A stretch of 34,772 nucleotides of DNA from Woeseiaceae bacterium (lineage in GTDB: Bacteria > Pseudomonadota > Gammaproteobacteria > Steroidobacterales > Woeseiaceae). The notes under the pieces were generated by a model. That model saw only the letters and a program-made list of their open reading frames with translations, was not told where the DNA came from and searched no databases. Of the stretch, positions 5,177 to 30,500 are shown one piece after another (the first letter of the stretch is position 1; each line of letters starts with the position of its first letter). The translations under genes were made by a program, and so were the position numbers. The DNA lies in NCBI GenBank assembly GCA_030066655.1, contig JASJBE010000053.1, positions 1-34,772 on the forward strand, written 5' to 3'.

Positions 5177-5296
5177 AAAACTGGCACGTCGCTGCCGGGC
5201 GCCGCAATGAATACGAATACATTGCATTGACTGAAATGCACCCCCTGCCTACCGTTATTCGAGGGATAAAAATGGATGATCTGGGGGGGTCATATC

Positions 5297-8200: not shown

Positions 8201-8932
8201 GTCGCAGCACACGATAACGAGACCTTGTTCGATATCAGCCAGTACAAACTGCCGCTCGCGACCAGCATGCATGATCGCATCCGTACGCTGAACCTCGGCA
8301 ACAGCATCATCGCCCTAAGCCAGGGTGTGCCGCTGTTCCACGCCGGCCAGGACATCGCACGATCGAAGTCGCTGGACAGGAACAGCTTCAATTCGGGCGA
8401 CTGGTTCAACTTCGTCGACTGGAGTTATTTCGAGACGGGCTGGGGCAGGGGGCTTCCGCCCTTCGGTGACAACCAGAATAACTGGTCTGAACAGTCGGCG
8501 CTGCTCGGCAACCCGTCGCTCGGTGACATCGACCGGCAGGATATTCGCGCTGCCGCCAAGCACACGCGCGAGATGCTGAGGATCCGCAACAGCTCATCGC
8601 TGTTCCGCCTGCGGACCGGACAGGATATCCAGGAGCGCGTCGAGTTCCACAACACGGGCCCGAGCCAGGTGCCGGGGCTCGTTGTCATGAGCCTGCGTGG
8701 TGACAACGACATCGAGATCGTCGTGCTGTTCAACGCGTCACCGGATGAGCAGAGCTTCTTCCTCGACACCGGTGAGGACAGCGAGTTCGAGTTGCACCCG
8801 ATACAGGAACGTTCGTTTGATCGCGTTGTTCGCCGTGCGGAGTATGACGAGGACGATTATACGTTTACGGTACCGGCACGGACGACGGCTGTGTTCGTCA
8901 ACGAGGACGCGGAAGACGAAGACGACGATTAG
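5297..8932 (+). CDS. Secreted pullulanase-type alpha-1,6-glucosidase (GH13_13)
   Basis: A 1211-residue secreted starch-debranching enzyme that should hydrolyse alpha-1,6 branches in pullulan, glycogen or amylopectin. The chosen ATG (5297) has GGGGGGG 8 bp upstream; an in-frame ATG at 5276 lacks this. A signal peptide ends near AHA. Three repeated X25/BaPul-like modules follow (about 35-315), each starting like [15 protein letters not shown] and ending near [10 protein letters not shown]. Next come a pullulanase N2-type domain (from [14 protein letters not shown]), a CBM48-like domain ([16 protein letters not shown]) and the catalytic barrel: DVVYNH, then [11 protein letters not shown] with nucleophile Asp800, GEGW with acid/base Glu837, and AAHDNETL with Asp973. 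A DUF3372-like C-terminal domain ends in an acidic tail. The gene stands alone between two REP-like palindromes. Confidence 0.95.
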
Positions 8933-9158: not shown

Positions 9159-10769
9159 TCAGGTGCCGACGTGCTCGTATCTGAACGTGCTCTTGCCGAG
9201 CAGCAGCGCATCGCCGTCGGCGAGTTTGTGCCGCGAGACACGCCGGCCGTTAATGCGGAAGCCGTTGGTGCTGCCGGCGTCCTCAACGATCGCGGTGGCG
9301 CCATCGATCAGGATGCGCACGTGATTGCGGCTGATGTACTTGCTGTCGATCTGGATGTCGCTCAAGTGTGAGCGGCCGACCGTGATCGAGTTGCCGATTA
9401 GCGGATAGCAAACCTGTTTGTCGAGCTTGCTGCCATCGGTGACGAGGACGTGCTCGGGTTTGTCCGTGGCCGGGTCCATAAGTGCTTCCGGTTCGATCAT
9501 AATTTCGTCGCCACCGTCGAAGACCTCGTTGAGGTCGTCATCCGCCGGTTGCGGCTCATCCCAACGGCTGTCGATCTGCACGTCCAGCGCCCGGATGCTG
9601 TCGCCGATCGATGACAGGCGATCCACGCTCATGTCGAGTACGTCGAGGTCGCCGCGCTTGCAGTCGAGTTCGTGCTCCAGCGTCTCGACGATCTCACGCT
9701 GCGCCTCCAGTTCGGCCTCAACGCTCTCGCGCGCCGATTCCGATTCGAGATACATGACGTCAAGCTCGTTGGCCCGGATCTCCAGCTCGGCGAACCGTTC
9801 CTGCAGGCTCGCTAGTTCGTCGGCGGCCTCCGATGCGTCGCTCCGCAGCTGCTGCTCCAGTGCCTCACTGTTCTTCAGTGCCAGTTTCAGCTCGGCGATA
9901 CGCGCGTCGTACTCGGTTCGCAGCTCCGAGAGGACCGCCTTTTCATTCTTGAGGTCAGCGTCGATCCGTTGCTCGTTGGCGCGTTGCGCATCGAGGTCCG
10001 AACGCAATGTCCGGATGGTTTCGTCGCGACGCTCGAGCTTGTTCCTGACTCGGTCGATCTCTCGCTTCAGGTCGGCCGATTCAGCGTGCAGCGTACGCAA
10101 CTCGTCGGTCTGTTCCTTGAACAGCTCGTGTAGTTCCGAATGCGCTGACTCCCGCTCTCCGTGGCGTCCCGAGACGTCGGCAAGCTGACGCTGCAGATCA
10201 GCAACCGACTCTTCGAGCGCCGCCCTCTGCCGGTCCTTGTCTGCGAGTGCTGACTCGTGGCTCTCGATGGCCCTGGCCATGCCTTTGATCGTGTCCTCGT
10301 ACTCACGAATCCGGTCGTCGGCGCCGTCCCATTTGCCCTTGCGATGCTTGATGTAGTCGTCGAGGTCCTCGATCTTCTTCTTGAGCGACGTATTCTTGCT
10401 CTCCAGCTTGACGATTCGCCTCTCGCTCCCATCCGCGGATTCTCTCGCGGCCTCGAGGTCGTCCTCGACGGACTGCTTCTGCGTGACGAGCGCGTCGCGG
10501 TCCTTGCGAATCAAATCCAGCTCCTCCTGCAGCTCGGCGACCTGTTGCTCCCGGGTAGAGAGCTTGCGCTCGACGAGCTGCCACTTCTTCTGCAGCGTCT
10601 CGCAGTCGCGCTCCAATTGACGTACCGAGTAGGACGCAGAACCAGCCGAGGCCAGTAACCTCGGTGCCTCGATGGTCGAGCCGTCGATGTCGTAGTCGTC
10701 GCCGAACAGAACCGGGTTATTTGCGGTTTCATCATTCTCGTTGCCGACGTTTGTGTTCTGGTCTGCCAT
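9159..10769 (-). CDS. Long coiled-coil protein with C-terminal FHA domain
   Basis: A 536-residue protein with no signal peptide or membrane segment. Residues about 50-390 are one long heptad-rich coiled coil (many Glu, Lys, Leu, Arg). The last 84 residues (453-536) are a forkhead-associated domain with its hallmark positions: GRS at 465-467, SRNH at 480-483 and STNGFRING around 500-508. FHA domains bind phosphothreonine peptides, so this is likely a cytoplasmic scaffold or adaptor whose contacts depend on Ser/Thr phosphorylation. It follows the LuxR-type gene by 9 bp with a GGGGG ribosome binding site, so they form one operon divergent from the amyloid-like operon. No kinase gene is in the window, and its role in that export system is only inferred from position. 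Confidence 0.88.
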   Translation of the reverse strand: MADQNTNVGNENDETANNPVLFGDDYDIDGSTIEAPRLLASAGSASYSVRQLERDCETLQKKWQLVERKLSTREQQVAELQEELDLIRKDRDALVTQKQSVEDDLEAARESADGSERRIVKLESKNTSLKKKIEDLDDYIKHRKGKWDGADDRIREYEDTIKGMARAIESHESALADKDRQRAALEESVADLQRQLADVSGRHGERESAHSELHELFKEQTDELRTLHAESADLKREIDRVRNKLERRDETIRTLRSDLDAQRANEQRIDADLKNEKAVLSELRTEYDARIAELKLALKNSEALEQQLRSDASEAADELASLQERFAELEIRANELDVMYLESESARESVEAELEAQREIVETLEHELDCKRGDLDVLDMSVDRLSSIGDSIRALDVQIDSRWDEPQPADDDLNEVFDGGDEIMIEPEALMDPATDKPEHVLVTDGSKLDKQVCYPLIGNSITVGRSHLSDIQIDSKYISRNHVRILIDGATAIVEDAGSTNGFRINGRRVSRHKLADGDALLLGKSTFRYEHVGT

Positions 10770-11888: not shown

Positions 11889-13217
11889 ATGACTACAAAC
11901 ACGCAAACAACACGCAGTCTGCTGACGTTGTTCGCGCTGTCCGTGCTGGCGACGCCGGCCATGGCAGACGACAGCGGCGGCGACATCGAGAATAGTGGCA
12001 ATACAGCCGCTGCAGGATCCTCGATGGCAAACGAGGAGTCGGATGCAAGCACGACGACCGTCAATACGGAAGACACGACGGTTACTAACGAGTCCAACAG
12101 CAGCGACAATGCAGACTACAGCACCAATAACATGACCGGCGCGACGAACAACAGCGCGTCCGCCGTGGACGACAGCGCTTCGGTCGCAATCAGCAATGCC
12201 GGCAACGACAACCTGAATAACAGTTCGTCAAACACGGCCGATTCCGACTTGAGCAGCTCAAACGCCCAGATTCTGGGTGCTTCAGCTAACAACGGTAGTG
12301 ACGCGTCTGCGGACAACAGCAACAATTCGGACTCGAGCACAAACAACAGCACAAGTGCGACGAACAGTAGCGCATCCGCTGTCGACGATAGTACGGCCAT
12401 CTCTGCCAACAACGTCGGCAACGGCAATCTGAACAACAACTCGACAAACACGGACGACGTCGACATCAGCAGCTCGGACGCGCAGAACATGGGCGCTTCG
12501 GCTAACAATGGCAGCGATGCGACGGTCAACAACAGCGACAGCTCCGACGATAGCATCGTGGGCGGCCTGCACGGTTCGTCGGTGGCCAATAACGGTGGCA
12601 CGTCCAACCTTAACGACAGCGACAATTCTGATGACAGCTACGCCGATGCCAGTGGCGGGGGTGCAGCTGCCGCCAACAATGGTGGCACGGCAACGGCCGA
12701 CAACCGCACGACTTCGATGGAAAACGAAGCCGAAGCATCCGGCAACTCGGTAGCGGCCAACAACGACAGCGACGCGACGATCAACAATAGCGATGGCTCT
12801 GTTGAGAACGAAGCGGAAGCAGAGAGCTACTCTGCTGCAGCGAACAATGACAGCGTCGCGTCTATCGACAACAGCGACAACTCGCTGGATCAGGACAACT
12901 CCGACAACAGCAGCGCGTCGGCTTACTTCCGCGGTGCAGCCGCCAACAACGGCGGCGCGGCGGAGATTGACAACAGCGTCTCGCTCGGCACCGTTGCGAT
13001 CAGCGAAAGCGATCTGGATGCGGCCGTGACGGACAACAGCACCGGCACATCGGCTTACCGAGAGGGCAGCGCCGACGCAAGCAACGATGTCGGTGGATCG
13101 TTCTCCGGCGCGGCAGGAATCAGCGTTGCAGCACAGAACGTTGGTCAATCGTCGGCCGTTCAACAGAGCGTCAACGTCCAGTCGAACCTGGGTACGGGAG
13201 CCGATCCTGCACAGTAG
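11889..13217 (+). CDS. Repeat-rich secreted protein, putative functional-amyloid subunit A (FapB/FapC-like)
   Basis: A 442-residue exported protein of very low complexity (Asn, Ser, Asp, Ala, Thr, Gly), without Cys or Trp and with almost no basic residues, hence strongly acidic. The ATG at 11889 has AGAGGGA upstream and begins a signal peptide ending PAMA. The mature start is DDSGGDIENSGN. Residues 79-150 and 151-222 are two tandem 72-residue repeats; 276-303 and 304-331 are two 28-residue repeats around ENEAEA and AANND. The tail (about 405-434) has FSGAAGISVAAQNVG then QQSVNVQSNL. It is the first gene of an operon with a C39 peptidase and a barrel pore, so it is proposed to be an extracellular fibre or matrix subunit. 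Sequence similarity to known Fap subunits is not evident by eye; an adhesin or ice/salt-protective coat protein is an alternative. Confidence 0.75.
   Translation: MTTNTQTTRSLLTLFALSVLATPAMADDSGGDIENSGNTAAAGSSMANEESDASTTTVNTEDTTVTNESNSSDNADYSTNNMTGATNNSASAVDDSASVAISNAGNDNLNNSSSNTADSDLSSSNAQILGASANNGSDASADNSNNSDSSTNNSTSATNSSASAVDDSTAISANNVGNGNLNNNSTNTDDVDISSSDAQNMGASANNGSDATVNNSDSSDDSIVGGLHGSSVANNGGTSNLNDSDNSDDSYADASGGGAAAANNGGTATADNRTTSMENEAEASGNSVAANNDSDATINNSDGSVENEAEAESYSAAANNDSVASIDNSDNSLDQDNSDNSSASAYFRGAAANNGGAAEIDNSVSLGTVAISESDLDAAVTDNSTGTSAYREGSADASNDVGGSFSGAAGISVAAQNVGQSSAVQQSVNVQSNLGTGADPAQ
12123..12554 (+). repeat. Two tandem 72-residue coding repeats in subunit A
   Basis: Residues 79-150 (12123-12338) and 151-222 (12339-12554) align without gaps. 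Both start TNN, contain SASAVDDS, then LNN, NT, a GASANNGSDA block and a Ser/Asp/Asn-rich end. The same period occurs in subunit B. Confidence 0.8.
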
Positions 13218-13258
13218 TGCACGTATTCGCAATTCATAACACTATGGGAAACAAGACA

Positions 13259-14554
13259 ATGAACAGTCAAAAACTACGTGAACTGGCGCTGGCGGCTGTG
13301 GCAATAGCGTTCAGCGGAGCCGCACTGGCCGATACCGATATCGAGAACAGCGGCAACAACTCTGATCTGGGTTCGTCAATGGCCAACGATGGCAGTACGG
13401 CGACCACGTCAACAGAAAACACCAGCACATCGAGCTTTACCGACGCGAGTGACAGCAGCGACAACAGCAACAGCAGCACCAACAACACGTCTACATCCGA
13501 TACGGCAGCGGCGTCCGCAGCGGATAGCAGTCTCGCTGTGGGTGTCTCCGACACGCTGAATAACAATGGCAATAACAGCTCGACGAACAGCGTGACGACA
13601 GACGGCAGTGGCTCGATGGCTGCCGGCGCCGCCGCGTCTGCAAACAATACGAGCACGTCCAGCGTCGACAACAGCGACAACAGCAACGACAGCACCAACA
13701 ACACGTCGACCGCAGATACTGGCGCCGCTTCGGCCGCAGACGGCAGTCTGTCAATCGGTGTTACCGACACGCTGAACAACAACGGCAACGACAACTCGAC
13801 GAACAGCTTTACCGCTGATGGCAGCGGTTCGTCGGCGAGCGGCGGTGCGGCATCGGCCAACAACAACAGCTCGTCGAGCGTCGACAACAGCGACAGCTCC
13901 AACTCGAGCGGTGTGCTCGGTGCCGGCGGCTCTGCGGTCGCCAATAATGGCGGTACGGCCAACCTTGACGGCAGCGACAACAGCGACAGTAGCTCTGCTT
14001 CAGCAGGCGGCAACGGCGCGGCAGCGGCAAATAACGGCGGCACGTCAACGGTCGACAACAGCCAGGACATCACCGAGAACGAAGCGGAGGCCGAAGGCTA
14101 CTCGGGCGCTGCGAACAACGGCAGCACGGTTATGGTCGACAACAGCGACAACAGCGTCGAGAACGAAGCAGAGGCCGACGGGTACTCGGGCGCTGCGAAC
14201 AACGGTAGCACCGTCACAGTCGACAACAGCGACAATTCGGACGACAGCGACAACTCAGACAGCAGCTACGCAAGTGCCGATGCGGGTGGCGCTGCAGCCA
14301 ATAACGGCGGCACGGCTTCCATCGACAACAGCATCTCGCTGGGTGGTGTGGCCGCGAACACGTCGACATTGTCGGCAACCGTGTCCAACAATGTTGTGCA
14401 TACCGATGTTTCCAAGGACTCGACCGTAACGACGAGCAACACACTGACGGATTCATTCTCTGATGCAGCTGGTATCAACGTCATCGGCCAGAACGCCGGC
14501 GACAACAGCCTGATTCAGCAGAACGTCAACGTTCAGTCGAACCTCGAACTGTAA
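13259..14554 (+). CDS. Repeat-rich secreted protein, putative functional-amyloid subunit B (FapB/FapC-like)
   Basis: A 431-residue paralogue of the preceding protein, encoded 41 bp downstream. The ATG at 13259 is preferred over upstream in-frame starts because GGGA lies 9 bp before it and the signal peptide (ending GAALA) then starts normally. The mature N-terminus DTDIENSGN and the following GSSMAND copy those of subunit A. Two 72-residue repeats (74-145 and 146-217) and two 28-residue ENEAEA repeats (272-299 and 300-327) have the same periods as in A. The C-terminus is FSDAAGINVIGQNAG then LIQQNVNVQSNL. There is no Cys or Trp and the composition is acidic. It is probably co-assembled with or nucleated by its paralogue outside the cell. 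Confidence 0.75.
   Translation: MNSQKLRELALAAVAIAFSGAALADTDIENSGNNSDLGSSMANDGSTATTSTENTSTSSFTDASDSSDNSNSSTNNTSTSDTAAASAADSSLAVGVSDTLNNNGNNSSTNSVTTDGSGSMAAGAAASANNTSTSSVDNSDNSNDSTNNTSTADTGAASAADGSLSIGVTDTLNNNGNDNSTNSFTADGSGSSASGGAASANNNSSSSVDNSDSSNSSGVLGAGGSAVANNGGTANLDGSDNSDSSSASAGGNGAAAANNGGTSTVDNSQDITENEAEAEGYSGAANNGSTVMVDNSDNSVENEAEADGYSGAANNGSTVTVDNSDNSDDSDNSDSSYASADAGGAAANNGGTASIDNSISLGGVAANTSTLSATVSNNVVHTDVSKDSTVTTSNTLTDSFSDAAGINVIGQNAGDNSLIQQNVNVQSNLEL
13478..13909 (+). repeat. Two tandem 72-residue coding repeats in subunit B
   Basis: The two 216-bp units (13478-13693 and 13694-13909) encode repeats starting TNNTST, with a central TLNNNGN, then TNS, DGSGS and a SANN block, and ending SVDNSD. 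The period and order of blocks match those of subunit A. Confidence 0.8.
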
Positions 14555-14568
14555 GGGTGTAAACGGCT

Positions 14569-14600
14569 GCTGCGCCGCGGACTCACGTTCGCGGCGCAGC
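14569..14600 (+). terminator. Strong GC-rich hairpin between subunit genes and assembly genes
   Basis: GCTGCGCCGCG (14569-14579) and CGCGGCGCAGC (14590-14600) form a perfect 11-bp stem with a 10-nt loop. It is not followed by a T-run, so it is not a classical intrinsic terminator. It sits 14 bp after the subunit B stop, where it could partly attenuate transcription or protect the upstream mRNA from 3' exonucleases, giving more subunit than export machinery. Confidence 0.6.
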
Positions 14601-14626
14601 TATCTCAATACAGCGGAGTAGTGCCA

Positions 14627-15070
14627 ATGATGAATCAAGTTCGAAAACTGGCGCTGGCGTTGGCCCCGGTGTTCTTCTTCCCCGTGGCCAGTGCCGACGA
14701 GACTGTCGAGGCGCCCGCAGCTGATGCCAAGGTGCCGGAGATCCAGGAGGTCGCCGAGAACGTGCTAACCGAAACGCTTTCCGGCCTTGATGCCTTCGAA
14801 TCCAGCGCGACGCTGAGCGACGATGAGCTCGGTACGCAACGTGCTAAAGAGAAGATTGAACTGGCTGAGATTACGATCAACGATCAGGAGCAGTCTGGCG
14901 ACGTCACTGACAACGTGGCGATCGGCAACACGACCGGCGATAACCTGATCGACGGCAACGCGTTCAGCAATTCCTCCGGCTTCCTGAGTACCGTGCAAAA
15001 CTCCGGCAACAACGTTCTGATCCAGAGTTCGACGATCATCAACGTGTCCGTCGACGCGCCCAGTAACTAG
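14627..15070 (+). CDS. Small secreted protein with amyloid-like C-terminal motif (fap-like operon)
   Basis: An exported protein of 147 residues. GGAG at 14614-14617 fits the ATG at 14627 (9 bp) better than the GTG at 14621. The signal peptide ends near VASA. The middle is acidic and helical (VPEIQEVAENVLTETLSGLDAF and RAKEKIELAEITI). The last 40 residues change to Asn/Ser/Gly-rich: GNTTGDN, then FSNSSG, QNSGNN and LIQSSTIINV. This tail has exactly the same spacing as the C-termini of both repeat subunits. It may be a minor subunit, nucleator, or chaperone that competes for the same docking site; FapA in Pseudomonas is a comparably small protein, but equivalence is only by size and context. 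Confidence 0.7.
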   Translation: MMNQVRKLALALAPVFFFPVASADETVEAPAADAKVPEIQEVAENVLTETLSGLDAFESSATLSDDELGTQRAKEKIELAEITINDQEQSGDVTDNVAIGNTTGDNLIDGNAFSNSSGFLSTVQNSGNNVLIQSSTIINVSVDAPSN

Positions 15071-15087
15071 CCGGAAGTCGTCGATAC

Positions 15088-15816
15088 ATGAACAGCAACA
15101 TCGCACGGAGGTTTGAGCGCTGGTCGCTGCAGCTGCGGGACCTTGTGACCGGTGCCGTACTGCTGGCGGCAGCGCTCCCCGTTTTTGCGGGCTCGGTATG
15201 GCTGCCGGACGGCGCCGGAGTCAGCAACATATCGATGCGCAGCATGCAGGAGACCAAGTTCTCGCAGGTTGTCCGCCAGCAGTACGACTTCAGCTGTGGA
15301 TCGGCGGCCATTGCGACCCTGCTGACCTATCACTATGAACGCGAAACGACAGAGAGAAATGCGTTCGAGGCGATGTTCGAGGTGGGCGACAAAGAAAAAA
15401 TCGCAACGGCCGGTTTCTCCTTGCTGGACATGAAGGGCTACCTCGAGTCGATTGGCTACGGTGCGGATGGCTATCAAGCGTCGCTGGATACACTCCAGGA
15501 AGCTGCCATACCCGCCATCGCGCTTATCAATGTCAGGGGTTACAGGCACTTCGTGGTTGTCAAGGGCGTCGATGACAACGAGGTGCTGATTGGCGATCCA
15601 GCCCTTGGGCTCAAGTATATGTCGCGACAGAAGTTCGAGTCGGTTTGGGATAATGGCGTGCTCTTCATCATCAAGACGGAGCCCGAAATGGGCAAAAAGA
15701 ACTTTAACCAGAGCGTCGAATGGGAACAGCTGGCCAGGGCGCCGCTTGGCAATACCATGCCGGGCGAAAGCCTGTCCGGGCTGACCGTCGACTTGCCGAG
15801 AATCGGAGATTTTTGA
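15088..15816 (+). CDS. C39-family papain-like cysteine peptidase (FapD-like)
   Basis: A 242-residue exported protein of the peptidase C39-like fold. A signal sequence or N-terminal anchor (LVTGAVLLAAALPVFA) ends near residue 34, so the enzyme acts in the periplasm. The catalytic residues are visible: Cys70 in YDFSCGSAAIATLL, His154 in GYRHFVVVKGV and Asp170 in IGDPALG. The fold matches the stand-alone C39 peptidases encoded in fap operons (FapD), which are needed for fibre export. The likely substrates are the subunits or the coiled-coil part of the pore. No double-glycine leader typical of bacteriocin C39 transporters is shared by the neighbouring proteins. The stop lies 1 bp before the next start codon. 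Confidence 0.87.
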   Translation: MNSNIARRFERWSLQLRDLVTGAVLLAAALPVFAGSVWLPDGAGVSNISMRSMQETKFSQVVRQQYDFSCGSAAIATLLTYHYERETTERNAFEAMFEVGDKEKIATAGFSLLDMKGYLESIGYGADGYQASLDTLQEAAIPAIALINVRGYRHFVVVKGVDDNEVLIGDPALGLKYMSRQKFESVWDNGVLFIIKTEPEMGKKNFNQSVEWEQLARAPLGNTMPGESLSGLTVDLPRIGDF

Positions 15817-15817
15817 G

Positions 15818-16969
15818 ATGTCGACCTTCGCATTGGTGCCTCGCGCCGAGGACCCCCATATAAAAGCGCTTGTCGCCACGTATGCTCCAATCGGGCGTCA
15901 GATTCGCCGGCAGGAGCAGCTGCGTCGCCGCCTGCTGGTTGCTGTCTGCGCGTTGGCCGTCACAGCGGGCGTGCTGTTGACGTGGCAGCTTCCGCTTGCG
16001 CTGAAGCCTGGTTACCAGGCGACCGCTACGATGACGCCCGAGATTGCGGCCGAGCTTCGCGAGGAGCGCGAACAGTTCAACGAGCGCCTCGTTGAGTTGG
16101 AGGCACAGCTCGCGATAATCAACCTGCAACGCGACCAGATTGACGATGAACGCGCAGAGCTGCAGGTGCAGGGCGACCGCCTGGAAGCGCTGATTGCCGC
16201 GGCGAGTGTTGAGCAGTTGGATCTCGAGCAGCGCGCGCAGCATGGCTCGAAGCTCGACGAAGAGATCGCGGCAATGGCGGCGCAGCGCGAGCAACTCGCA
16301 GAACGGTTGTCGCGGTTCGACGCTCAGGGCGAGCTGCTGGCCGTGGAGTTGCTCGCGGTCAATGCGCAGCGCAAGGAACTCGAAGCGCAGCGACAGAAAA
16401 TCAACGAACAGCAACGGGCGCTTGCCCAGCTCATCGATCGGGCAGAAGGGCTGTACAAGCGCGCTGCCGCCGCAGGCATCGATTCAGCCCTCGACGAAAC
16501 GTCGGCGGTGAAAACCGAAGAAGATCCGCTGATGAACTCCTTCAGCTATGACGTGGCGGCGGTAAACGACTTGATCGTGCAAAACGTCAAGCTCGACGAG
16601 ATGCGTGGTGGCTTCAGCATTGGCGACGGTCTCGACGTATCCATCGGCTTCACGCAGACAGGTTCAATTAACGGCATCGAGCAGTTCCACAACCAGTTCA
16701 CGATCAACAGCATGGCGCAGGGTTTCTCGGAGTCCGACCTGCTGAACATGAACTCCGTCCTCGTACAGCAGGGTGACGGCAATTTCGTGTCGCCCGGGGT
16801 TATCGAGGCCATGGGCAGCAGCTTCGGCAGCATCATCCAGAACTCGCTCGACGACCAGACTATCGCTACCGAAACGGTGCTCGACATCTCCCTGCACAAC
16901 GTGCCGGGTGCGGTCATGGGTATATCCGGTGAGCAGGCCCTGCTGGATAGCCTGACCTCGTACCGCTGA
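15818..16969 (+). CDS. Membrane-anchored periplasmic coiled-coil protein with C-terminal beta domain (fap-like operon)
   Basis: A 383-residue protein. Residues 1-37 are basic and cytoplasmic (RRQEQLRRRLL), 38-58 form one membrane helix, and about 74-215 are a long Glu/Gln/Arg/Leu-rich coiled coil that should project into the periplasm. The last 150 residues form a separate domain beginning FSYDVAAVNDLIVQNVKLDEMRGGF and containing SIIQNSLDDQTI, which weakly echoes the C-terminal motif of the subunits. The position matches fapE, but an inner-membrane anchor plus coiled coil is not what I know of FapE. It could link the inner membrane to the coiled coil of the pore encoded next, like an adaptor. 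The start follows the C39 stop by 1 bp. Confidence 0.75.
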   Translation: MSTFALVPRAEDPHIKALVATYAPIGRQIRRQEQLRRRLLVAVCALAVTAGVLLTWQLPLALKPGYQATATMTPEIAAELREEREQFNERLVELEAQLAIINLQRDQIDDERAELQVQGDRLEALIAAASVEQLDLEQRAQHGSKLDEEIAAMAAQREQLAERLSRFDAQGELLAVELLAVNAQRKELEAQRQKINEQQRALAQLIDRAEGLYKRAAAAGIDSALDETSAVKTEEDPLMNSFSYDVAAVNDLIVQNVKLDEMRGGFSIGDGLDVSIGFTQTGSINGIEQFHNQFTINSMAQGFSESDLLNMNSVLVQQGDGNFVSPGVIEAMGSSFGSIIQNSLDDQTIATETVLDISLHNVPGAVMGISGEQALLDSLTSYR

Positions 16970-16987
16970 TCGCAGGGGATGACGATA

Positions 16988-18262
16988 GTGATACGCGCAC
17001 TCCAACTTCGAACAGGGATACTGGTCGCCATCGCCCTGGCGCCACAAATGGCGATCGCCGACGGAGCAGCGGGCGCCGGGGAAGACCCACTGTTGCAGAA
17101 GATGCAGGCGGTCAACGCGCAGTACACCGAGCTACTCGACAAGATGGACACAATCGAGGCGCAGCGGCGCAAGATAAAGCAGCTGATGCAGGAGATCGAG
17201 GAGCTAGAGCAGCATCGCGGTGGGTCGTCTGCGCCGCCTGAGGAAGACGAGCCGACCGAGGTCGCGACGGAAAGACGCGAAGAGCTTGAGGCTCAGGCGC
17301 AGGAACAGCAGATGCCGGAGCTGCCGCGAATCAGCGATGATGTTGGCGGCGTGCTGACCCGCCGGGGTCGATTTACGCTTGAGCCGTCTATCGGTTTCTC
17401 GTATTCGTCGGTGAACCGCATCGCGGTAGAGGGCTTTACGATTCTTCCCGCGCTGCTGGTCGGTATCATCGACGTCGTCGAGGCCGACCGCGAGACCTAC
17501 ACGGCTCGTTTGACGGGGCGCTACGGCATAACGAATCGATTCGAGGCAGAGCTCAGCAGCTCGTGGCTGTATCGGGATGATTCGACGCGGTCTCGCGAGT
17601 TCCTGACCGGCGCCGTAGAGGACACCGTCTTCAATGCCAGCGGCGATGGGCTCGGTGACATCGAGCTCGGCCTGCGTTATCAGTTCAAACGCAGCAAACC
17701 GACGTCGCCGTTTCTGACGGCCAATCTCAGAATCAAGTCGGATACCGGCACCGACCCATTCGAGATTGCGACGATGTCGACCCTTGCCGGGCAACCGCAG
17801 TTCTCGACCGAGCTGCCGACGGGCTCGGGCTTCTGGAGCGTCAATCCGAGCCTGAGCTTCATCTATCCGTCAGACCCCGTCGTGTTTTTCGGCAGCATCG
17901 GCTACTTGTGGACCATCGAGGATGACAAGGGCACGTGGCTCGACGAGGAGGGCAACATCGCCGGTTTCGGCAGAGTAGACCCGGGTGATGCGTTCCGCGC
18001 GAGCTTCGGTCTCGGCTTGGGTCTGAATGAGAATTCGTCGTTCAGTATCAGCTACAGCCTCGACCAGTTCACGCGGACGCGGATCGAGACGGCCTCAAGT
18101 CCGAGCATCGCCGGATCGGACGTCACGATCGGCAAACTGCTGATTGGCTATTCACTGCGTACGCCGAACGGCACGCCGCTGAATCTCGCCGTCGGCATAG
18201 GCACTACGGACGAGGCTCCCGACACAGACATCACCTTCAGGATGCCTTTCCATTTCGACTAG
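16988..18262 (+). CDS. Outer-membrane beta-barrel pore with N-terminal coiled coil (FapF-like)
   Basis: About 424 residues. The GTG at 16988 has AGGGG at a normal distance, whereas the in-frame ATG at 16979 directly abuts it. A signal peptide ends near QMAIA. It is followed by a heptad segment (LLQKMQAVNAQYTELLDKMD to QEIEELEQH), a charged linker, and then about 300 residues of alternating strands of an outer-membrane barrel (GRFTLEPSIGFSYSSV, LGDIELGLRYQFKR, ITFRMPFHF). FapF of Pseudomonas is about this long and has the same plan: a trimeric barrel gated by a periplasmic helical plug or coiled coil. It is therefore the predicted exit channel for the two repeat subunits and the last gene of the operon. 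Confidence 0.82.
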   Translation: MIRALQLRTGILVAIALAPQMAIADGAAGAGEDPLLQKMQAVNAQYTELLDKMDTIEAQRRKIKQLMQEIEELEQHRGGSSAPPEEDEPTEVATERREELEAQAQEQQMPELPRISDDVGGVLTRRGRFTLEPSIGFSYSSVNRIAVEGFTILPALLVGIIDVVEADRETYTARLTGRYGITNRFEAELSSSWLYRDDSTRSREFLTGAVEDTVFNASGDGLGDIELGLRYQFKRSKPTSPFLTANLRIKSDTGTDPFEIATMSTLAGQPQFSTELPTGSGFWSVNPSLSFIYPSDPVVFFGSIGYLWTIEDDKGTWLDEEGNIAGFGRVDPGDAFRASFGLGLGLNENSSFSISYSLDQFTRTRIETASSPSIAGSDVTIGKLLIGYSLRTPNGTPLNLAVGIGTTDEAPDTDITFRMPFHFD

Positions 18263-18432: not shown

Positions 18433-18927
18433 TTAGCCGTTCTTTGCCAGGCGCTCCTGCAGGTACTTGTATTCCTTGTGGGCGAGGCGCCCGCAGTCGC
18501 CCCCGACGAACTCGACCAGCGTCTTGCCGACGAACGGAATACCGCAGTCGACCGTCAGACGGACATGATTGGTGCAGCCGGTCTTGGTGGGCTTCAGTTC
18601 CAGCGATCCTGATACCGTGACCGGCACATTGGCGATATCAATGTCGAGGTCTGCCGCATACACGTCGCCGTCGAGGTACTCCCACTCTTCCGACTGTTCC
18701 ACGACATTCCACGGCTGCAGGAACTTGCTGAGCACGCCGGGTACATTCGCCGGTACCTCACGCACGAACGTAACGATCGCTCCTTCGTCGTCCGTCGTGC
18801 ATTCCTCGACACTGATATTGCGCGCACCCAGCGCCTTGTGCTTCGCCTTGATCTCCTTCTTGCTCGTGAACATCGCGTAAAGCTCATCGGTGCTGTGCAC
18901 GTACTTGTGCTTCTGGTAGATCTCCAT
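18433..18927 (-). CDS. DUF2505 domain protein
   Basis: A 164-residue cytoplasmic protein of the DUF2505 type, a START/SRPBCC-like helix-grip fold predicted to bind hydrophobic ligands. Visible features are the N-terminal YVHSTDELYAMFTS, the central FLQPWNVVEQSEEWEY, and a C-terminal helix (FVGGDCGRLAHKEYKYLQERLAKN). The ATG is 1 bp downstream of the HMG-CoA reductase stop, so it belongs to the WS/DGAT-HMGR operon. A helix-grip protein in an isoprenoid/ester operon suggests binding of a lipid intermediate, but this is inference. It ends 170 bp from the convergent pore gene; no clear terminator was seen between them. Confidence 0.82.
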   Translation of the reverse strand: MEIYQKHKYVHSTDELYAMFTSKKEIKAKHKALGARNISVEECTTDDEGAIVTFVREVPANVPGVLSKFLQPWNVVEQSEEWEYLDGDVYAADLDIDIANVPVTVSGSLELKPTKTGCTNHVRLTVDCGIPFVGKTLVEFVGGDCGRLAHKEYKYLQERLAKNG

Positions 18928-18928
18928 G

Positions 18929-20101
18929 CTACCGGTTCCGCCCCATTTGCTCGTGGCTGCTCACCCACTCGTTGGCGAGGATGGCCGACGACAGAGAGAT
19001 GTCGCCTGCCAGCACGACGGCGGTAATGATCTCGGCGAGCTTGTCGCCTTTACCGGTGCCGTAGCAGTCCATTATTTCGAGGCATTCGCGCTGTGTCTGC
19101 AGGCCCGTGCCACCACCGTAGGTGGCACAGATCAGCGCCGGCAGCGTCGTCGACCAGTACAGGTCGCCGTTGTCCAGCATCTGGCAATAGTTCATGCCGG
19201 CATGCGACTCAGACACGTTCGCCGCATCCTGGCCGCAGGCGATGAACATGGCGGCGATACCGTTCGCCGAGTGTGCGCCGCTGTATGAAGCACCTGACAG
19301 GTGAGTGCCGATGCCGGCGATCTGCCGGAACTTGTAGAGCCATTCCGGCTCGATGCGCAGCAGCTTTTTCGCGACGTCGCGCTTCAATACGAACTCTGCG
19401 ACAACGCGTTTGCCGCGCGTCTGGATCATGTTCATCATCGAGTGCTTCTTGTCGGTGTCGATGTTGCCGGACAGGATGTAGCGCGGGTTCGCCGGATGAT
19501 TGGTCTTGATCCATTCGCAGGCATACAGTGTCGCCTTGCCGGTCATGTTCTGGCCCGCCGCGTCGCCTGTCGTGTAGCAGAATCGCGTGTAAAGCATGTT
19601 GGCGACTACGTATTTCTCAATTTCTATCAGTTCGGGGACATCCACAGAGGCCCTGACGACGGCGCGAATGGACTCGATGTGTTCATCCAGCCACTTGCCG
19701 AATTCGCGCGCGTCCAGCGCGCTGTCGAACAGGAAGACCGGCGCCCTCTGCATCGAGTGCTTGACGACCGTGGTTCTGCAACCACCGCATTCGCTGATGA
19801 CGCGCATGCCGCGGCTGTAGCTCGCAACCAGCGTGCCTTCGGTGGTCGCCATCGGAATGTAGAAATCACCCTGCGCGTGCTCGCCGACCATCTTCAGTGG
19901 TCCGGCGATGCCGATCGGTATCTGCGCCGTGCCGGTAAAGTTCTCGATGTTGCCCATCGTCGTTTCCGGATCGATAGAGAAGTTCGTCACCTTGTCCAGC
20001 TTGGCGCCAGTCTCAGCCTCGATGAACTCGGCGCGTTTCTTCGCCATCTCGCGGGTGTGGTCGTTGCCCTTGTCGCGGGGAATTGAGTGTCGTTCGGTCA
20101 T
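18929..20101 (-). CDS. HMG-CoA reductase, class I-like
   Basis: A 390-residue enzyme of the hydroxymethylglutaryl-CoA reductase family, which makes mevalonate from HMG-CoA using NAD(P)H. The class I landmarks are seen: NIENFTGTAQIPIGIAGPL, Glu88 in ATTEGTLVAS, Lys218/219 in NIDTDKK, Asp292 in CGQDAANV, and His383 in SSHEQMGRNR at the very C-terminus. The dinucleotide loop reads GDAAGQNM instead of the usual GDAMGMNM, and GGGT is preserved in ATYGGGTGL, so it is a divergent member. A GGAG precedes the ATG. It lies between a WS/DGAT gene and a DUF2505 gene. No other mevalonate-pathway gene is in the window. Most Gammaproteobacteria use the MEP route, so either the rest of the pathway is elsewhere or the substrate differs. 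Confidence 0.9.
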   Translation of the reverse strand: MTERHSIPRDKGNDHTREMAKKRAEFIEAETGAKLDKVTNFSIDPETTMGNIENFTGTAQIPIGIAGPLKMVGEHAQGDFYIPMATTEGTLVASYSRGMRVISECGGCRTTVVKHSMQRAPVFLFDSALDAREFGKWLDEHIESIRAVVRASVDVPELIEIEKYVVANMLYTRFCYTTGDAAGQNMTGKATLYACEWIKTNHPANPRYILSGNIDTDKKHSMMNMIQTRGKRVVAEFVLKRDVAKKLLRIEPEWLYKFRQIAGIGTHLSGASYSGAHSANGIAAMFIACGQDAANVSESHAGMNYCQMLDNGDLYWSTTLPALICATYGGGTGLQTQRECLEIMDCYGTGKGDKLAEIITAVVLAGDISLSSAILANEWVSSHEQMGRNR

Positions 20102-20129: not shown

Positions 20130-21524
20130 TTAGACGGCCTCCTCGAGTTCGACCAGTGACTGTTCCAGGTAGTCGATCAGACGCTGGACGCCAGGCACCG
20201 TGCTTCGACATGCGACGATGCCGAAGTCGAGACTGTCGTGGTAACTAACTAATGTGATGTTCAGTGCAAAACCGTGGAATACCGCAGATACGGGATACGT
20301 GCCGAGTAGCGATGCGCCGTTCAGATACAGCTGCTCCCGTGGTCCGGGCACGTTCGAGATCACCGTACTGACCGGCGGGAACCAGTCGGCGACGCCCATC
20401 AGGCTCGAGATAAACAGCGGAGTCTGTACCAGCGTGGCATAGAGCCCGGCCTCGCGCGGCGACAGCTGGCTGAGCATCTCCTTGCCGGACTGCGTCGACG
20501 CAACAATCGTCTCGAGACGCTCCTCCGGATCTTCATGGCGGGTGCCGAGGTCGGCAACGATGTAGCTGATGGCGACCGGTGAATCGAAATCGTCTTTCTT
20601 CCTGACTGAGACGGGCACGAGCGCGCGCAATGAGTGCTCTGGCAGCTCATCCTGTTCCTCGAGGTAGCGCCTGAGCGCGCCGGAACACATGGCGAGGACG
20701 ATGTCATTTAGCGTGACGCCCGCCGCCTTGCTGACGGCACGTATGCGATCGATGCTCCAGGACTGCGCGACGAATCGACGAGCGCTCGAGACCTTCGTGT
20801 TGAGCATCGTGTGCGGGACGTGTCGCCACGGCACAGCGAGCCCATCGCCAAACCCCAGCCACGTCGTGGCGTAGCTTTTTAGCAGGCCGAGAACATGAGA
20901 GGACGTCTCGAATTGCGTCTTAAAGAACTCGGCAATCGCATTGAGCTCCGACTCGCTCGGGTCAAACTTGTGCTTCTTGCGGTGTTTGTGCGCCGCTTTG
21001 TACCTTTCATGCGCCTCAATCGAGAACGGCGAAATATCAATAACCGCTTCGGGATCGGGTGAGCAACCGCCCTCGGTAAGCTGCATGCCGGCAACACCAT
21101 CGACCGTCGCGTGATGGACCTTCGTGTAGACAGCAAATTCACGATTCTTCAGGCCCTCGATCAGGTGCACCTCCCAGAGCGGACGGCTGCGGTCGAGCAC
21201 CGTCGAGTGCAGCTGCCCCACCAGCGCAAACAGCTCGCGATAATTGCCCGGGCTGGGCAACGCGGCCTGGCTCACGTGATAGTCGAGGTCGATGTCGTCG
21301 GCTTCCTCCCAGCGGAGCGGCCCGAAGCGGCCCAGCACGCTGTGGCCGGCGAGGTGAGCGAAGGGTTTGCGAAGTTCGGTTGTGGAACGATACGAGTCAG
21401 CCAGCCGGGCCATGAAGGTCCGGCGGTTCACGCGATCCGGGAATTTGAACAGGCTCACGCCGCCGACATGCATCGGCGTCTCCGGCGTTTCGAGCATCAG
21501 GAACCCGGACTCTAAGAGACTCAT
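20130..21524 (-). CDS. Wax ester synthase / diacylglycerol acyltransferase (WS/DGAT family)
   Basis: A 464-residue bifunctional acyltransferase of the WS/DGAT (O-acyltransferase) family, which joins acyl-CoA to long-chain alcohols or diacylglycerol to form storage wax or triacylglycerol. The catalytic HHxxxDG is present (KVHHATVDGVAGM, His137-His138, Asp142-Gly143). Also seen are the N-terminal MSLLESGFLMLETPETPMHVGG, PLRWEEADD, SRPLWEVHLIEGL, and the later NDIVLAMCSGALRRYL and SNVPGPREQLYL. The ATG at 21524 (AGTGGACAG upstream) is preferred over the GTG at 21533. It is first in an operon with HMG-CoA reductase (28 bp) and DUF2505, so a polyisoprenoid or sterol-like alcohol acceptor is worth considering. 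Confidence 0.93.
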   Translation of the reverse strand: MSLLESGFLMLETPETPMHVGGVSLFKFPDRVNRRTFMARLADSYRSTTELRKPFAHLAGHSVLGRFGPLRWEEADDIDLDYHVSQAALPSPGNYRELFALVGQLHSTVLDRSRPLWEVHLIEGLKNREFAVYTKVHHATVDGVAGMQLTEGGCSPDPEAVIDISPFSIEAHERYKAAHKHRKKHKFDPSESELNAIAEFFKTQFETSSHVLGLLKSYATTWLGFGDGLAVPWRHVPHTMLNTKVSSARRFVAQSWSIDRIRAVSKAAGVTLNDIVLAMCSGALRRYLEEQDELPEHSLRALVPVSVRKKDDFDSPVAISYIVADLGTRHEDPEERLETIVASTQSGKEMLSQLSPREAGLYATLVQTPLFISSLMGVADWFPPVSTVISNVPGPREQLYLNGASLLGTYPVSAVFHGFALNITLVSYHDSLDFGIVACRSTVPGVQRLIDYLEQSLVELEEAV

Positions 21525-21580
21525 TCTGTCCACTACCGGATTCTACCGAATTGCGGACCCGAATAAGCGCCGTAGCGCAT

Positions 21581-21604
21581 AGGTATTTGTATGTATAAAT
21601 ACCT
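21581..21604. promoter_or_regulatory. Palindromic operator candidate at the WS/DGAT promoter
   Basis: AGGTATTT (21581-21588) and AAATACCT (21597-21604) are perfect 8-bp arms around an 8-nt AT-rich spacer that is itself partly symmetrical. It lies 57 bp upstream of the WS/DGAT ATG in an otherwise GC-rich gap. The minus strand also reads TATACA inside it, a possible -10. The form suits a TetR-type or other dimeric repressor. Confidence 0.5.
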
Positions 21605-21821
21605 GAAATTACGACGAAAGTCGGCGTCGGATGGCCGTTTATCGGCGCACCCTACGGCGTCGTTCATGAGCTGGGCCGAGGTGACACACTGCGACCGGGT
21701 TCTGCTCGCACCAAAGCGTTCCGGGCCATGTGTGCGACAACGCACAGTGCCAAGGGTATGACGTGGTTTAGAGTGAGTAACCCAGATGCAGATGGCCTGA
21801 TTCCCGGCAGGAGCGAGACAC

Positions 21822-23369
21822 ATGGCAGACGCACCCGACATAGCGATACTGGTTGAGAAGATCGAAGCGCGTGACGCGTCGGCGGTGCCGGCAATCACAG
21901 CGCTGAGCGATCGCTGCCAGGTCGACGGGCACAACCGCACGTTGTTCGACGTTGCAATCCTCGCCAACAACGCAGAGGTGATTGCGCTGCTAGCATCAGA
22001 CGCGGATGCACTCGAGTTCGCTCCGCCGGTCGACGAGAAGAACACGAACCAGATGAGAAACACGGCGGCGAGTTTCGGTATCGACGTGCCTGTCTCGAAG
22101 CTTGAGGCGATGCTCGAGAAGTCATTCGGGCAGGACGTCCCGTACGGGCGAGCACCGCTGCACTCCGCCTGCAGGGCAGGGAACGCCGAGGCGATGCAGA
22201 CGCTGCTCGCTGCCGGCGCCAGAATCGATACCAGGGACGTGATGGGTCTCACCGCGGCGGAGCTGGCTTTCTACGCGCATGGGGAGCCGGGGCTGCGAGA
22301 CTTCGTTGCTGCGTTCAAGCGCAGTGATCGGGCGTCGCTGCCCGTGGGCAAACGCCTGCTGCGGGAGACCTTCGCCTTTCCCGACGTGATGGAGGAATTG
22401 CTGGCGATCGGGAAACTCGATTCGTACGCGCGGCGCCTGTTGTTCTGTTACCGGTGCGCCTGGCTCGACATCGATGCGGTGCAGACGCTGCTGGCGGAAG
22501 GGCACGATCCGAACAAGGGTGTCACGTCCGAGATTAACCCGGTATGGAACGCCTGCACGTCGGCCTTGCTGTGGGACGAAGCGATTCCGGGTGGTCTCGA
22601 CATGGCGTTTCACTACACAAAGCACCTTGGGCACCCCGATGCGAGCTCAATCTCCGTCGACAACGCGCTTCTGAATGAAGACGGCTCCAACTTCGGCAAG
22701 CTGTTTTCAGAAGCTCAGCGGAAGCAGAGCGAGCAGAAGAAGATGGTGAGCAAGATGACGATCGATCCTGAGGTCGAGCAGGACGTGATTGCACGCCGAA
22801 TCCGCTTGCTCGACGTACTGTTAGCGGCCGGGGCCGACGTCCCCCTGGCCCGAAAGAAACTGGAGTTTCCGTCATTCGGCGAACTTAAGCAGATGAACCT
22901 TGGCGCCGTGGCCGACCGGCTGAAACAGCGGGGAAAAAATGCTGCGCCGCCTGAGAAAAAGAAAAAGCCGGCCGCGTCGACGTGGTGGGAAGTGCCGGTC
23001 GAGACCGGTTTGAACGTTGAGTACTGGCCCGTCGAAGGGGCGGGCGGCCTGTTGCGCCTGGCTCTGAGCAACACGTACGGCCCGATCGACGGTGTCACAC
23101 TTTGCGTGAGCCTGTCTCGCGATGAGTCAAAGCCCGCCGATGAATGGAGCGCATTAACGCCGGTCGCCGAAACCATCGATGTTGACGGTGAGGTTGTAGC
23201 GCGAGCCAGCCTGACCGAAAAGGTCTACGGCGAGACTCCGTGGGAGGCGGTCTACGAGCTGTCGCTGGACAAAGCCGGAGACGAGAAGGTGTTGTGGATC
23301 CGCCTCGACCACGACGAGTATGAAGAGCTGGCAGGCGAGCTCGACCCGTGGAGGTTCGCCAAAGACTGA
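21822..23369 (+). CDS. Ankyrin-repeat protein
   Basis: A 515-residue cytoplasmic protein (no signal peptide, no membrane segment). AGGAG precedes the ATG. The N-terminal half has ankyrin repeats: one degenerate around residues 38-65 (NRTLFDVAILANNAEVIALLA), one clear around 108-137 (GRAPLHSACRAGNAEAMQTLLAAGARIDTRD), and further ones near DIDAVQTLLAEGHDPNKG and RIRLLDVLLAAGADVPLA. A Lys-rich linker (EKKKKPAAS) leads to a C-terminal strand-rich domain of about 135 residues that I do not recognise (WWEVPVETGLNVEYWPVEG to the end). Ankyrin repeats bind partner proteins; the partner is unknown. It is divergent from WS/DGAT across about 300 bp. Confidence 0.85.
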   Translation: MADAPDIAILVEKIEARDASAVPAITALSDRCQVDGHNRTLFDVAILANNAEVIALLASDADALEFAPPVDEKNTNQMRNTAASFGIDVPVSKLEAMLEKSFGQDVPYGRAPLHSACRAGNAEAMQTLLAAGARIDTRDVMGLTAAELAFYAHGEPGLRDFVAAFKRSDRASLPVGKRLLRETFAFPDVMEELLAIGKLDSYARRLLFCYRCAWLDIDAVQTLLAEGHDPNKGVTSEINPVWNACTSALLWDEAIPGGLDMAFHYTKHLGHPDASSISVDNALLNEDGSNFGKLFSEAQRKQSEQKKMVSKMTIDPEVEQDVIARRIRLLDVLLAAGADVPLARKKLEFPSFGELKQMNLGAVADRLKQRGKNAAPPEKKKKPAASTWWEVPVETGLNVEYWPVEGAGGLLRLALSNTYGPIDGVTLCVSLSRDESKPADEWSALTPVAETIDVDGEVVARASLTEKVYGETPWEAVYELSLDKAGDEKVLWIRLDHDEYEELAGELDPWRFAKD

Positions 23370-23442
23370 CGGCTACCCGCGGGCCCGTCTCGCCTACCGA
23401 CAGGCCCGGGTCCTGGCAAGCTCGATCACGGTTCAGCTCCCG

Positions 23443-27017: not shown

Positions 27018-27041
27018 CTAATCTCCCCCCGATGTCTCTCC

Positions 27042-28397: not shown

Positions 28398-28421
28398 GAT
28401 TAATTGCTCCTGGTGTTCGAT

Positions 28422-30323: not shown

Positions 30324-30417
30324 TTTTAACCCCCGAAATAGGTGTGTTCGTGTTGTTAAGCGTCAGTGCGCGGTCAACCGGAAACCCGGCCAGAACACGC
30401 ACTGCCGTAGTTCCCCT

Positions 30418-30441
30418 ATTCGCTCATATTGGGGGGCGAAT
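30418..30441. promoter_or_regulatory. Inverted repeat upstream of the DUF1302 operon
   Basis: ATTCGC (30418-30423) and GCGAAT (30436-30441) flank a 12-nt spacer containing TCATATTGGGGG. It lies about 95 bp upstream of the DUF1302 ATG in the 177-bp gap after the patatin gene. It may be an operator for the envelope operon; short arms make this tentative. Confidence 0.3.
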
Positions 30442-30500
30442 TGTCATTGGGATAAACCGAGAGACGGCCTCGGTTTACTGCTGAAGCTTGATGTCGGGTG

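Follow-up and report, generated by a model that had tools for sequence, protein, structure and literature searches.

The stretch of DNA analysed here, 34,772 nucleotides from a Woeseiaceae bacterium with a 3.6 Mb genome (contig JASJBE010000053.1; hereafter, the window), carries at 11889-18262 six co-directional open reading frames (ORFs), all found where the original prediction had placed them (Table 1). They encode two acidic repeat proteins (SubA and SubB), a small secreted protein, a C39 peptidase, a membrane-anchored protein with a long helix and a coiled-coil/barrel protein. The original prediction took the operon for a distant version of the Fap amyloid-export system of Pseudomonas (fapABCDEF), and this reading is borne out by the homology of the barrel and C39 proteins and by a gene set that is kept together in distant bacteria; none of the three outcomes that it had named as refuting it came about. 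We put the probability that the operon is a sister version of the Fap system with C39 leader cutting at roughly 0.7; within that reading, cleavage, the order of events and fibre formation are our inferences.

Table 1. Features of the operon and its linked regulators, with positions in the window
Feature	Position	Strand	Basis
Coiled-coil protein with C-terminal FHA domain	9159..10769	-	PF00498 1.8e-15
LuxR-type regulator, divergent, C-terminal helix-turn-helix	10779..11456	-	PF00196 6.4e-14
SubA, acidic Asn/Ser/Asp/Ala repeat protein, 442 aa, signal peptide	11889..13217	+	28-residue imperfect repeats, ANNGGT...DNS type
SubA C-terminal Fap-like module, residues 380-435	13026..13193	+	sister-clade subunit C-terminal model, independent E-value (i-E) 2e-17
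SubB, SubA paralogue, 431 aa, same repeat type, 72-residue super-repeat	13259..14554	+
SubB C-terminal Fap-like module, residues 374-430	14378..14548	+	i-E 1.2e-19
Small secreted protein, 147 aa, leader-like segment and one Fap-like repeat	14627..15070	+
Leader-like segment of the small protein, LSDDELGTQRAK	14813..14848	+	L-12, E-8, L-7, R-3 kept; AK replaces GG
FapD-like C39 cysteine peptidase, probably periplasmic, Cys70/His154/Asp170	15088..15816	+	PF03412 E 6.5e-24
FapE-like protein, 383 aa, N-terminal transmembrane segment, predicted 145-residue helix 74-218, leader site, C-terminal beta domain	15818..16969	+
Predicted C39 site L259-DEM-R263-G264-G265 / F266	16592..16612	+	conserved columns and motif counts
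FapF-like outer-membrane barrel, 427 aa, N-terminal coiled coil and plug-like helix	16979..18262	+	profile, Foldseek, AlphaFold2 (AF2)
Predicted second C39 site L76-EQH-R80-G81-G82 / S83, end of barrel-protein coiled coil	17204..17224	+

Pfam gives clear matches for two of the six ORFs, the fourth (C39) and the sixth (the barrel protein, Phenol_MetA_deg, 2.2e-8). In NCBIfam the best match of the C39 protein is FapD (2.9e-46, 157.5 bits) and that of the barrel protein is FapF (1.4e-49, 169.1 bits); because these scores fall under the NCBI cut-offs (330 and 700, respectively), both proteins count as relatives below the curated membership line, and the C39 protein nonetheless has strong support as a member of the FapD family at large. 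A profile of 55 barrel homologues matched the FapF crystal sequences (5o67) over the barrel with E 4.7e-70, the next different PDB protein following at 0.24. The AF2 model of the barrel protein (pLDDT, its per-residue confidence, 85.1) has a helix at 37-80, a second helix at 96-109 and a strand-rich part from residue 132, in agreement with the layout of coiled coil, plug helix and barrel given for FapF in a passage of the 2018 review (PMC6173800) and with the signal-peptide/coiled-coil/barrel protein that had been proposed. Rather than an unrelated porin fold, the model matched FapF first in Foldseek (ranks 1-18 are FapF chains, best E 1.6e-24, TM by target 0.80-0.86), with a COG4313 channel next at 5e-11.

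The proposed catalytic residues of the peptidase are likewise sound: Cys70, His154 and Asp170, and Gln64 with them, are invariant in 95/95 sister-clade and 16/16 classical aligned sequences, a comparison made without L127 and L156, the former omitted because its C39 protein was only partly matched. An N-terminal hydrophobic segment suggests that the peptidase lies in the periplasm. In a maximum-likelihood tree of 122 C39 rows, the 17 classical Fap sequences, Aeromonas included, fall on one side of a branch (95/89) that excludes the window, and the window sits among the sister-clade rows in a five-row clade with its four nearest relatives, L015-L018 (100/96). No single branch splits off the sister rows (3 changes), since two of them are placed elsewhere and rows from ATP-binding cassette (ABC) transporters stand among the rest: L043 and L156 (G212) are on the classical side, L156 joined to long ABC branches, and five ABC rows are on the sister side, with some of the joins unsafe.

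Patterns built from three C39 sequences and run over genome contigs matched at least 588 stretches, at least 558 of them encoding relatives, and the best 80 loci, from Pseudomonadota, Thermodesulfobacteriota, Myxococcota, Nitrospirota and one Ignavibacteria bin, were kept. When their ORFs were assigned to the best-matching model, a small protein was found at 76 loci, a FapE-like protein at 78, a barrel at 69 and a subunit at 59 (the subunit, small and FapE-like models have a common module and therefore overlap); the C39 gene is adjoined by the small gene in 72 and by the FapE-like gene in 77. Of these loci, 57 include 3.5 kb or more of sequence on each side of the C39 gene; in this subset the small gene was adjacent in 53, the FapE-like gene adjacent in 56, the barrel present in 55, a subunit present in 44 and the full set of five components in 41. 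Since the components recur together in this way, the gene set is not a product of chance. The barrel gene has often been moved or lies on the opposite strand in related loci. The operon is sporadic closer to home, as a close C39 orthologue occurs in 1/36 same-genus genomes and in 1/23 genomes of the same order outside the genus.

The FapF model, run over 369 gammaproteobacterial genomes, gave 16 at 307-456 bits, 17 besides the window at 111-171 bits and weaker matches below; its cut-off was passed by 0/369, classical-like loci included, and the C39 protein of one genome in the lower band (G212) is placed outside the sister clade. Among 398 Pseudomonadota genomes, 20 have classical FapE and 16 (window genome included) have the sister FapE-like protein. 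One genome, G071, holds both systems (L132, L147). A four-sequence FapA model gave a best E of 0.11 in the window and nothing at E 0.01 in the 80 sister-clade loci, and it finds 8/17 classical loci, 4 of which are its own model rows; FapA loss is reported to be common in Fap (PMC3792158). In the published record, Dueholm 2013 found that the FapD and FapF models match larger families, which were set aside (PMC3792158), and the 2018 review has a passage on co-located fapD/fapF homologues in five further phyla (PMC6173800), so that the wider family had already been glimpsed. The 2025 review, as far as its available text goes, made homology to the Fap repeats a requirement, arrived at 1602 clusters and described Fap as an evolutionarily "fixed" system (PMC12822426); the latter statement needs qualification, because the homology that the survey required is largely absent from the subunits described here. 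In a side observation, a complete sister-clade operon lies on a Polymorphobacter plasmid (L164, 5224-9595), where all genes but the C39 peptidase are annotated as hypothetical. A sister-clade locus also occurs in a laboratory strain, Cupriavidus metallidurans CH34.

The FapE-like gene directly follows the C39 gene, which is the position of fapE. The original prediction described a membrane-anchored coiled-coil protein and counted it as an additional component; it occupies the fapE position, however, and carries the classical FapE motif, and by position and motif it is probably the FapE counterpart. In its AF2 model, a helix at 13-57 covers the hydrophobic segment and is followed by the single helix 74-218 (by arithmetic about 21 nm if straight), disorder at 219-245 and a short helix over the leader, which lies between this disordered linker and a beta domain at 273-360; the predicted template-modelling score (pTM) is only 0.32, and the relative placement of these parts is therefore not predicted. 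Outside the leader motif the sequence has diverged from classical FapE, with the long helix added.

In a 57-row alignment L259 is invariant, and R263, G264 and G265 are each at least 90% conserved. The strict motif L...RGG occurs in 81/91 FapE-like homologues with the window excluded (79/89 once repeated proteins are removed), against a shuffled mean of 1.4, and in 0/94 C39 proteins and 0/76 subunits; the ten homologues without it read RAG, RGA, TGG, VGG, TGK or MxxxRGG variants. C39 leaders are described as having L-12, E-8, L-7, a hydrophobic residue at -4 and GG (PMC6363468, in part). The FapE-like sites agree with this code: of 92 sites scored from 94 rows (L157 and L158 repeat L017 and L015, and the scoring missed L024 and L033, which the strict pattern finds), 90 have L-7, 88 G-2, 90 G-1, 86 V/L/M/I at -12, 40 E-8 and 81 F or Y at +1. 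Further sister-clade places that cover the region read RGGF in 15/15 (14 genomes; G130 and G071 were already in the first site set, L201 is a fragment that lacks the region and L203 is the second piece of L197). These fresh samples are not fully independent tests, because the models include the motif columns and species may overlap with the first set. A relaxed motif, [LM]...[RKSTVA][GA][GRKA], was abandoned as useless for barrels, C39 proteins and subunits because shuffles gave equal counts.

Most FapE-like homologues are short secreted proteins that lack the long helix: from hydrophobic segment to motif the median is 27 residues (91 proteins), and in the window it is 207. Read from sequence, the four nearest relatives have a hydrophobic segment that starts at residue 34-52, more than 200 residues ahead of the site. 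A separate group (L046, L059, L076, L081, L082, L094) has long spacers too, after an ordinary N-terminal hydrophobic segment, and in three of its members, from Sphaerotilaceae and kin (L046, L081, L094), 440-660 residues lie between that segment and the RGG site. In the window, a transmembrane segment and a predicted 145-residue helix precede the site, so a cut there would release the FapE-like domain from its inner-membrane tether.

The composition claimed for SubA and SubB stands, with a pI of 4.05, about 15% Asn, 20% Ser, 10% Asp and 15% Ala, low Gln and no Cys, and identity at lag 28 is 0.21 in SubA and 0.24 in SubB (expected 0.12). The lack of Cys had been offered as a feature that sets them apart, and it was dropped when 9/10 classical FapB/FapC sampled also proved to be without Cys after residue 30. 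The three Fap repeats of FapB and FapC are absent from the window, and the 28-residue Asn/Ser/Asp repeats with one Fap-like C-terminal module stand in their place; in other clades the subunit bodies are built of other Asn/Ser/Asp repeats (first 12 of 76 subunits read). In profile comparisons, whose reversed controls were all 0.2 or higher, the C-termini of sister-clade subunits matched the classical Fap repeat with E 1e-4 (reversed control 0.21), the small-protein family matched it with 7.2e-5 (0.28), and the small protein was in turn matched by classical FapE (2e-5) and by the FapE-like protein (8.6e-10). Comparisons that failed were those of the Fap repeat with classical FapE (0.0068) and of whole subunits with classical FapE (0.81) and with the FapE-like protein (0.069). 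A direct search of the six window proteins with the classical repeat found the small protein (4.1e-5), with SubA and SubB not significant at E 6 each, and a model of 15 classical repeats found 2/76 sister-clade subunits at E 1e-3. In two Acidithiobacillus loci (L042, L055) a sister-clade C39 protein is accompanied, all the same, by a 309-357 aa subunit of several Fap-like modules, and these may bridge the two subunit types.

The small secreted protein, present as predicted, belongs to a family in which L...RG[G/R/K] occurs in 31/89 homologues (shuffles 0.5). Two classical Fap operons have an additional first gene upstream of fapA (L124 6767-7081 and L126 6749-7168, both on the minus strand), with products of 104 and 139 aa and leader-like segments SELHEISGK and DQLGQVRGLF; this gene is possibly the classical counterpart of the small protein of the window.

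Classical FapE reads [L/M]xxxRG[R/K][Y/F] at the same place in 15/15 (ELAHLRGRY in Aeromonas). Fresh classical matches outside the model genomes (18, from 17 genomes) have G-2, [R/K]-1 and [Y/F]+1 in 18/18 and R-3 in 16/18, the other two reading HGKF and TGKY. In this sample 7/8 genomes of one family have FapF above the NCBI cut-off, and FapE from that family's genomes reads, e.g., LKDAEMADLRGRY. Work by Rouse and colleagues, in the text available, holds that FapD catalysis (its catalytic Cys) is required for secretion and that FapE is the one protein with complete N-terminal loss by mass spectrometry, its first ~70 residues missing (PMC5557850). The FapD substrate was stated to be undetermined, with FapE suspected, in 2017 and 2018 (PMC5557850, PMC6173800), and a passage of the 2025 review says only that FapD is thought to process FapE and FapF (PMC12822426). 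The classical FapE site that we propose, neither GG nor GA, fits the published data (PMC5557850, in part), with the caveat that trypsin itself would cut after R/K. The comparison with the sister clade thus suggests where the fibre-export protease would cut. FapD is an essential protease of the Pseudomonas biofilm amyloid, and because the double-glycine leader has stayed plainly recognisable in the sister clade, the question of the FapD substrate narrows to a named residue. Among the matches listed in open-licence PMC, we found no publication that gives the FapE site or describes the components of this clade.

In the sequence of events that we propose, the subunits, small protein, C39 peptidase and barrel protein would reach the periplasm by Sec, as their signal peptides suggest, and the FapE-like protein would be kept in the inner membrane by its uncleaved N-terminal helix, the predicted 145-residue helix carrying it across the periplasm. 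The C39 peptidase would recognise L(-7)xxxR(-3)G(-2)G(-1) and cut after the leader, freeing the C-terminal FapE-like domain; in the window lineage, it may also cut the barrel protein between coiled coil and plug-like helix, such that the pore could open or be reset. SubA and SubB would then pass out through the FapF-like pore and assemble on the outside, where the one Fap-like module that the subunits have in common with the small protein would hold them or start the assembly. We lean, by a little over even odds, towards a broader proposal: that peptidases of the FapD family act in the periplasm as proteases of the double-glycine type and obey a single leader code, [L/M]-7 xxx R-3 G-2 [G/R/K]-1 / [F/Y], which would set the FapE cut across the superfamily and, in some lineages, that of the barrel and the small partner; that the leader in the window ends an inner-membrane-anchored, periplasm-spanning helix, whose cutting would physically uncouple the FapE-like domain from the inner membrane as the pore unlocks; and that the sister clade, apparently about as common as classical Fap in our samples, would be missed by screens gated on Fap repeats.

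Several observations weigh against this account. The subunit bodies match no family in Pfam or NCBIfam (for SubA, Pfam gives nothing at E 1, and the sole NCBIfam match, E 0.058, is of the order expected by chance), the Fap repeat did not match the FapE-like domain (0.82), and the beta domain of the FapE-like protein had no PDB match in a structure search (best E 0.61). The FapE-like homologues were gathered with profiles that contain the motif columns, and the modest matches of FapE to sister profiles (probability 65-68%, E 8e-6 to 5e-5) lie mainly in the motif region. At the proposed site, position -1 of classical FapE is occupied by R/K and not by G, two of the four window-lineage relatives deviate from GG (L016 RAG, L018 RGA, although GA is a known C39 cut according to PMC6363468, in part), and the small protein of the window reads RAK, its four nearest relatives RA[K/R]. 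In the barrel the site is sparse: the window protein reads IEELEQHRGG/SS, and L015, L017 and L018, not L016, share the pattern, and yet L...RGG occurs in 11/85 barrels against 2.2 in shuffles (maximum 6), ten of the 11 sites by reading ahead of the barrel and one inside it, and the seven bona fide FapF linkers that were read all lack it. A C39 site general to the barrel linker was rejected on these counts, and with so sparse a motif a barrel cut is plausible in no more than the window lineage and a few further ones. Passages of PMC5557850 describe the Fap proteins as being without canonical C39 sequences and suspect GG/GA motifs in FapE and in the FapF linker, another source describes FapD as modifying FapC (PMC10638192, in part), and our literature search found no experiment on the sister clade.

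An alternative on the side of the product is that the operon exports no amyloid but a matrix or cation-binding layer that is disordered, acidic and rich in Asn, Ser and Asp, with the export machine alone common to Fap. The acidity and low Gln of subunit bodies that differ between clades, nearly all of them beyond the reach of the classical-repeat model, speak for it, but the single Fap-like C-terminal module is kept, the bodies have a 28-residue period, and the FapE-like and small partners are retained, so that we regard it as unlikely. Distinctly less probable is a non-cutting role for the C39 protein of a Fap-type exporter: it would bind the leader as a chaperone or docking factor, and the motif would be a binding tag that brings the FapE-like protein and the barrel together in one complex. 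Non-catalytic C39-like domains that recruit substrates do exist (PMC6363468, in part), and both the R/K at -1 of classical FapE and the small protein of the window, which keeps the leader and not the GG, would suit such a role; against this stand the invariance of the catalytic Gln, Cys, His and Asp and the need for the catalytic Cys of FapD in secretion (PMC5557850, in part). It is very improbable, and already disfavoured, that the operon represents the putative Fil pilus of Acinetobacter or some kindred pilus and is no relative of Fap: Fil also pairs a C39 protein with a barrel, and the NCBIfam FilB and FilC models do match the window proteins (1.7e-39 and 1.1e-15), but FapD and FapF match better, and the sole Acinetobacter C39 protein in the tree has a long branch of its own, away from the window.

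Taken as a sister version of Fap, the operon has in common with fapABCDEF a FapD-type C39 protein, a FapF-type coiled-coil barrel, a protein in the FapE position that shares its leader-like motif, a pair of repeat subunits and the gene order subunit-subunit-C39-E-F. It differs in having one Fap-like C-terminal module rather than three repeats, an additional small protein, a FapE counterpart that is membrane-tethered by a long helix and has a GG rather than a G-R/K site, and a linked LuxR/FHA pair. With a separate C39 clade, C39 and barrel proteins below the NCBI FapD/FapF cut-offs, no FapA found and the three Fap repeats replaced, it is not Fap sensu stricto. The leader, with L-12, E-8, L-7, a hydrophobic residue at -4 and GG at the cut, resembles that of the substrates of peptidase-containing ABC transporters, whereas here the peptidase is free and predicted to be periplasmic, there is no ABC transporter and the proposed substrates are large envelope proteins. 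Like curli (csg), in which repeat proteins are secreted for a matrix fibre (PMC5557850, in part), the system may export repeat proteins; no curlin-repeat or CsgG match at E 1 was found by Pfam in the six proteins.

The LuxR/FHA pair of the original prediction is real, and the divergent genes recur beside the operon in 4/4 nearest relatives (L015-L018); among the 80 loci there was no other FHA match and no other LuxR N-terminal match at E 1e-4. This fits a dedicated regulation of the operon by the pair. The start of the LuxR gene is probably the ATG at 11456 and not 11651 (longest ORF), judged by the L015 homologue, and that of SubB is most likely 13259 rather than the 13217 of the ORF reading. 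Since ORF starts were taken as the first possible ones, with a correction made for the overlap with the C39 gene only, some leader lengths are overestimated. Scans for promoters and terminators were near the shuffled expectation (3 vs 1.5 and 6 vs 7.2, respectively).

Elsewhere in the window, a 1218-aa pullulanase with three X25 stretches (5276-8932, plus strand) has a beta-lactamase-fold protein (3631-5094) as its neighbour. Immediately after the operon, at 18433-20101 (minus strand), are an HMG-CoA reductase (PF00368, 2.1e-120) and a DUF2505 protein, followed at 20130-31976 by a co-directional run on the minus strand of a WS/DGAT acyltransferase, an MMPL transporter, a BNR-repeat protein, DUF1329, DUF1302 and a DUF3336/patatin lipase, which looks like a storage-lipid or sterol-related cluster.

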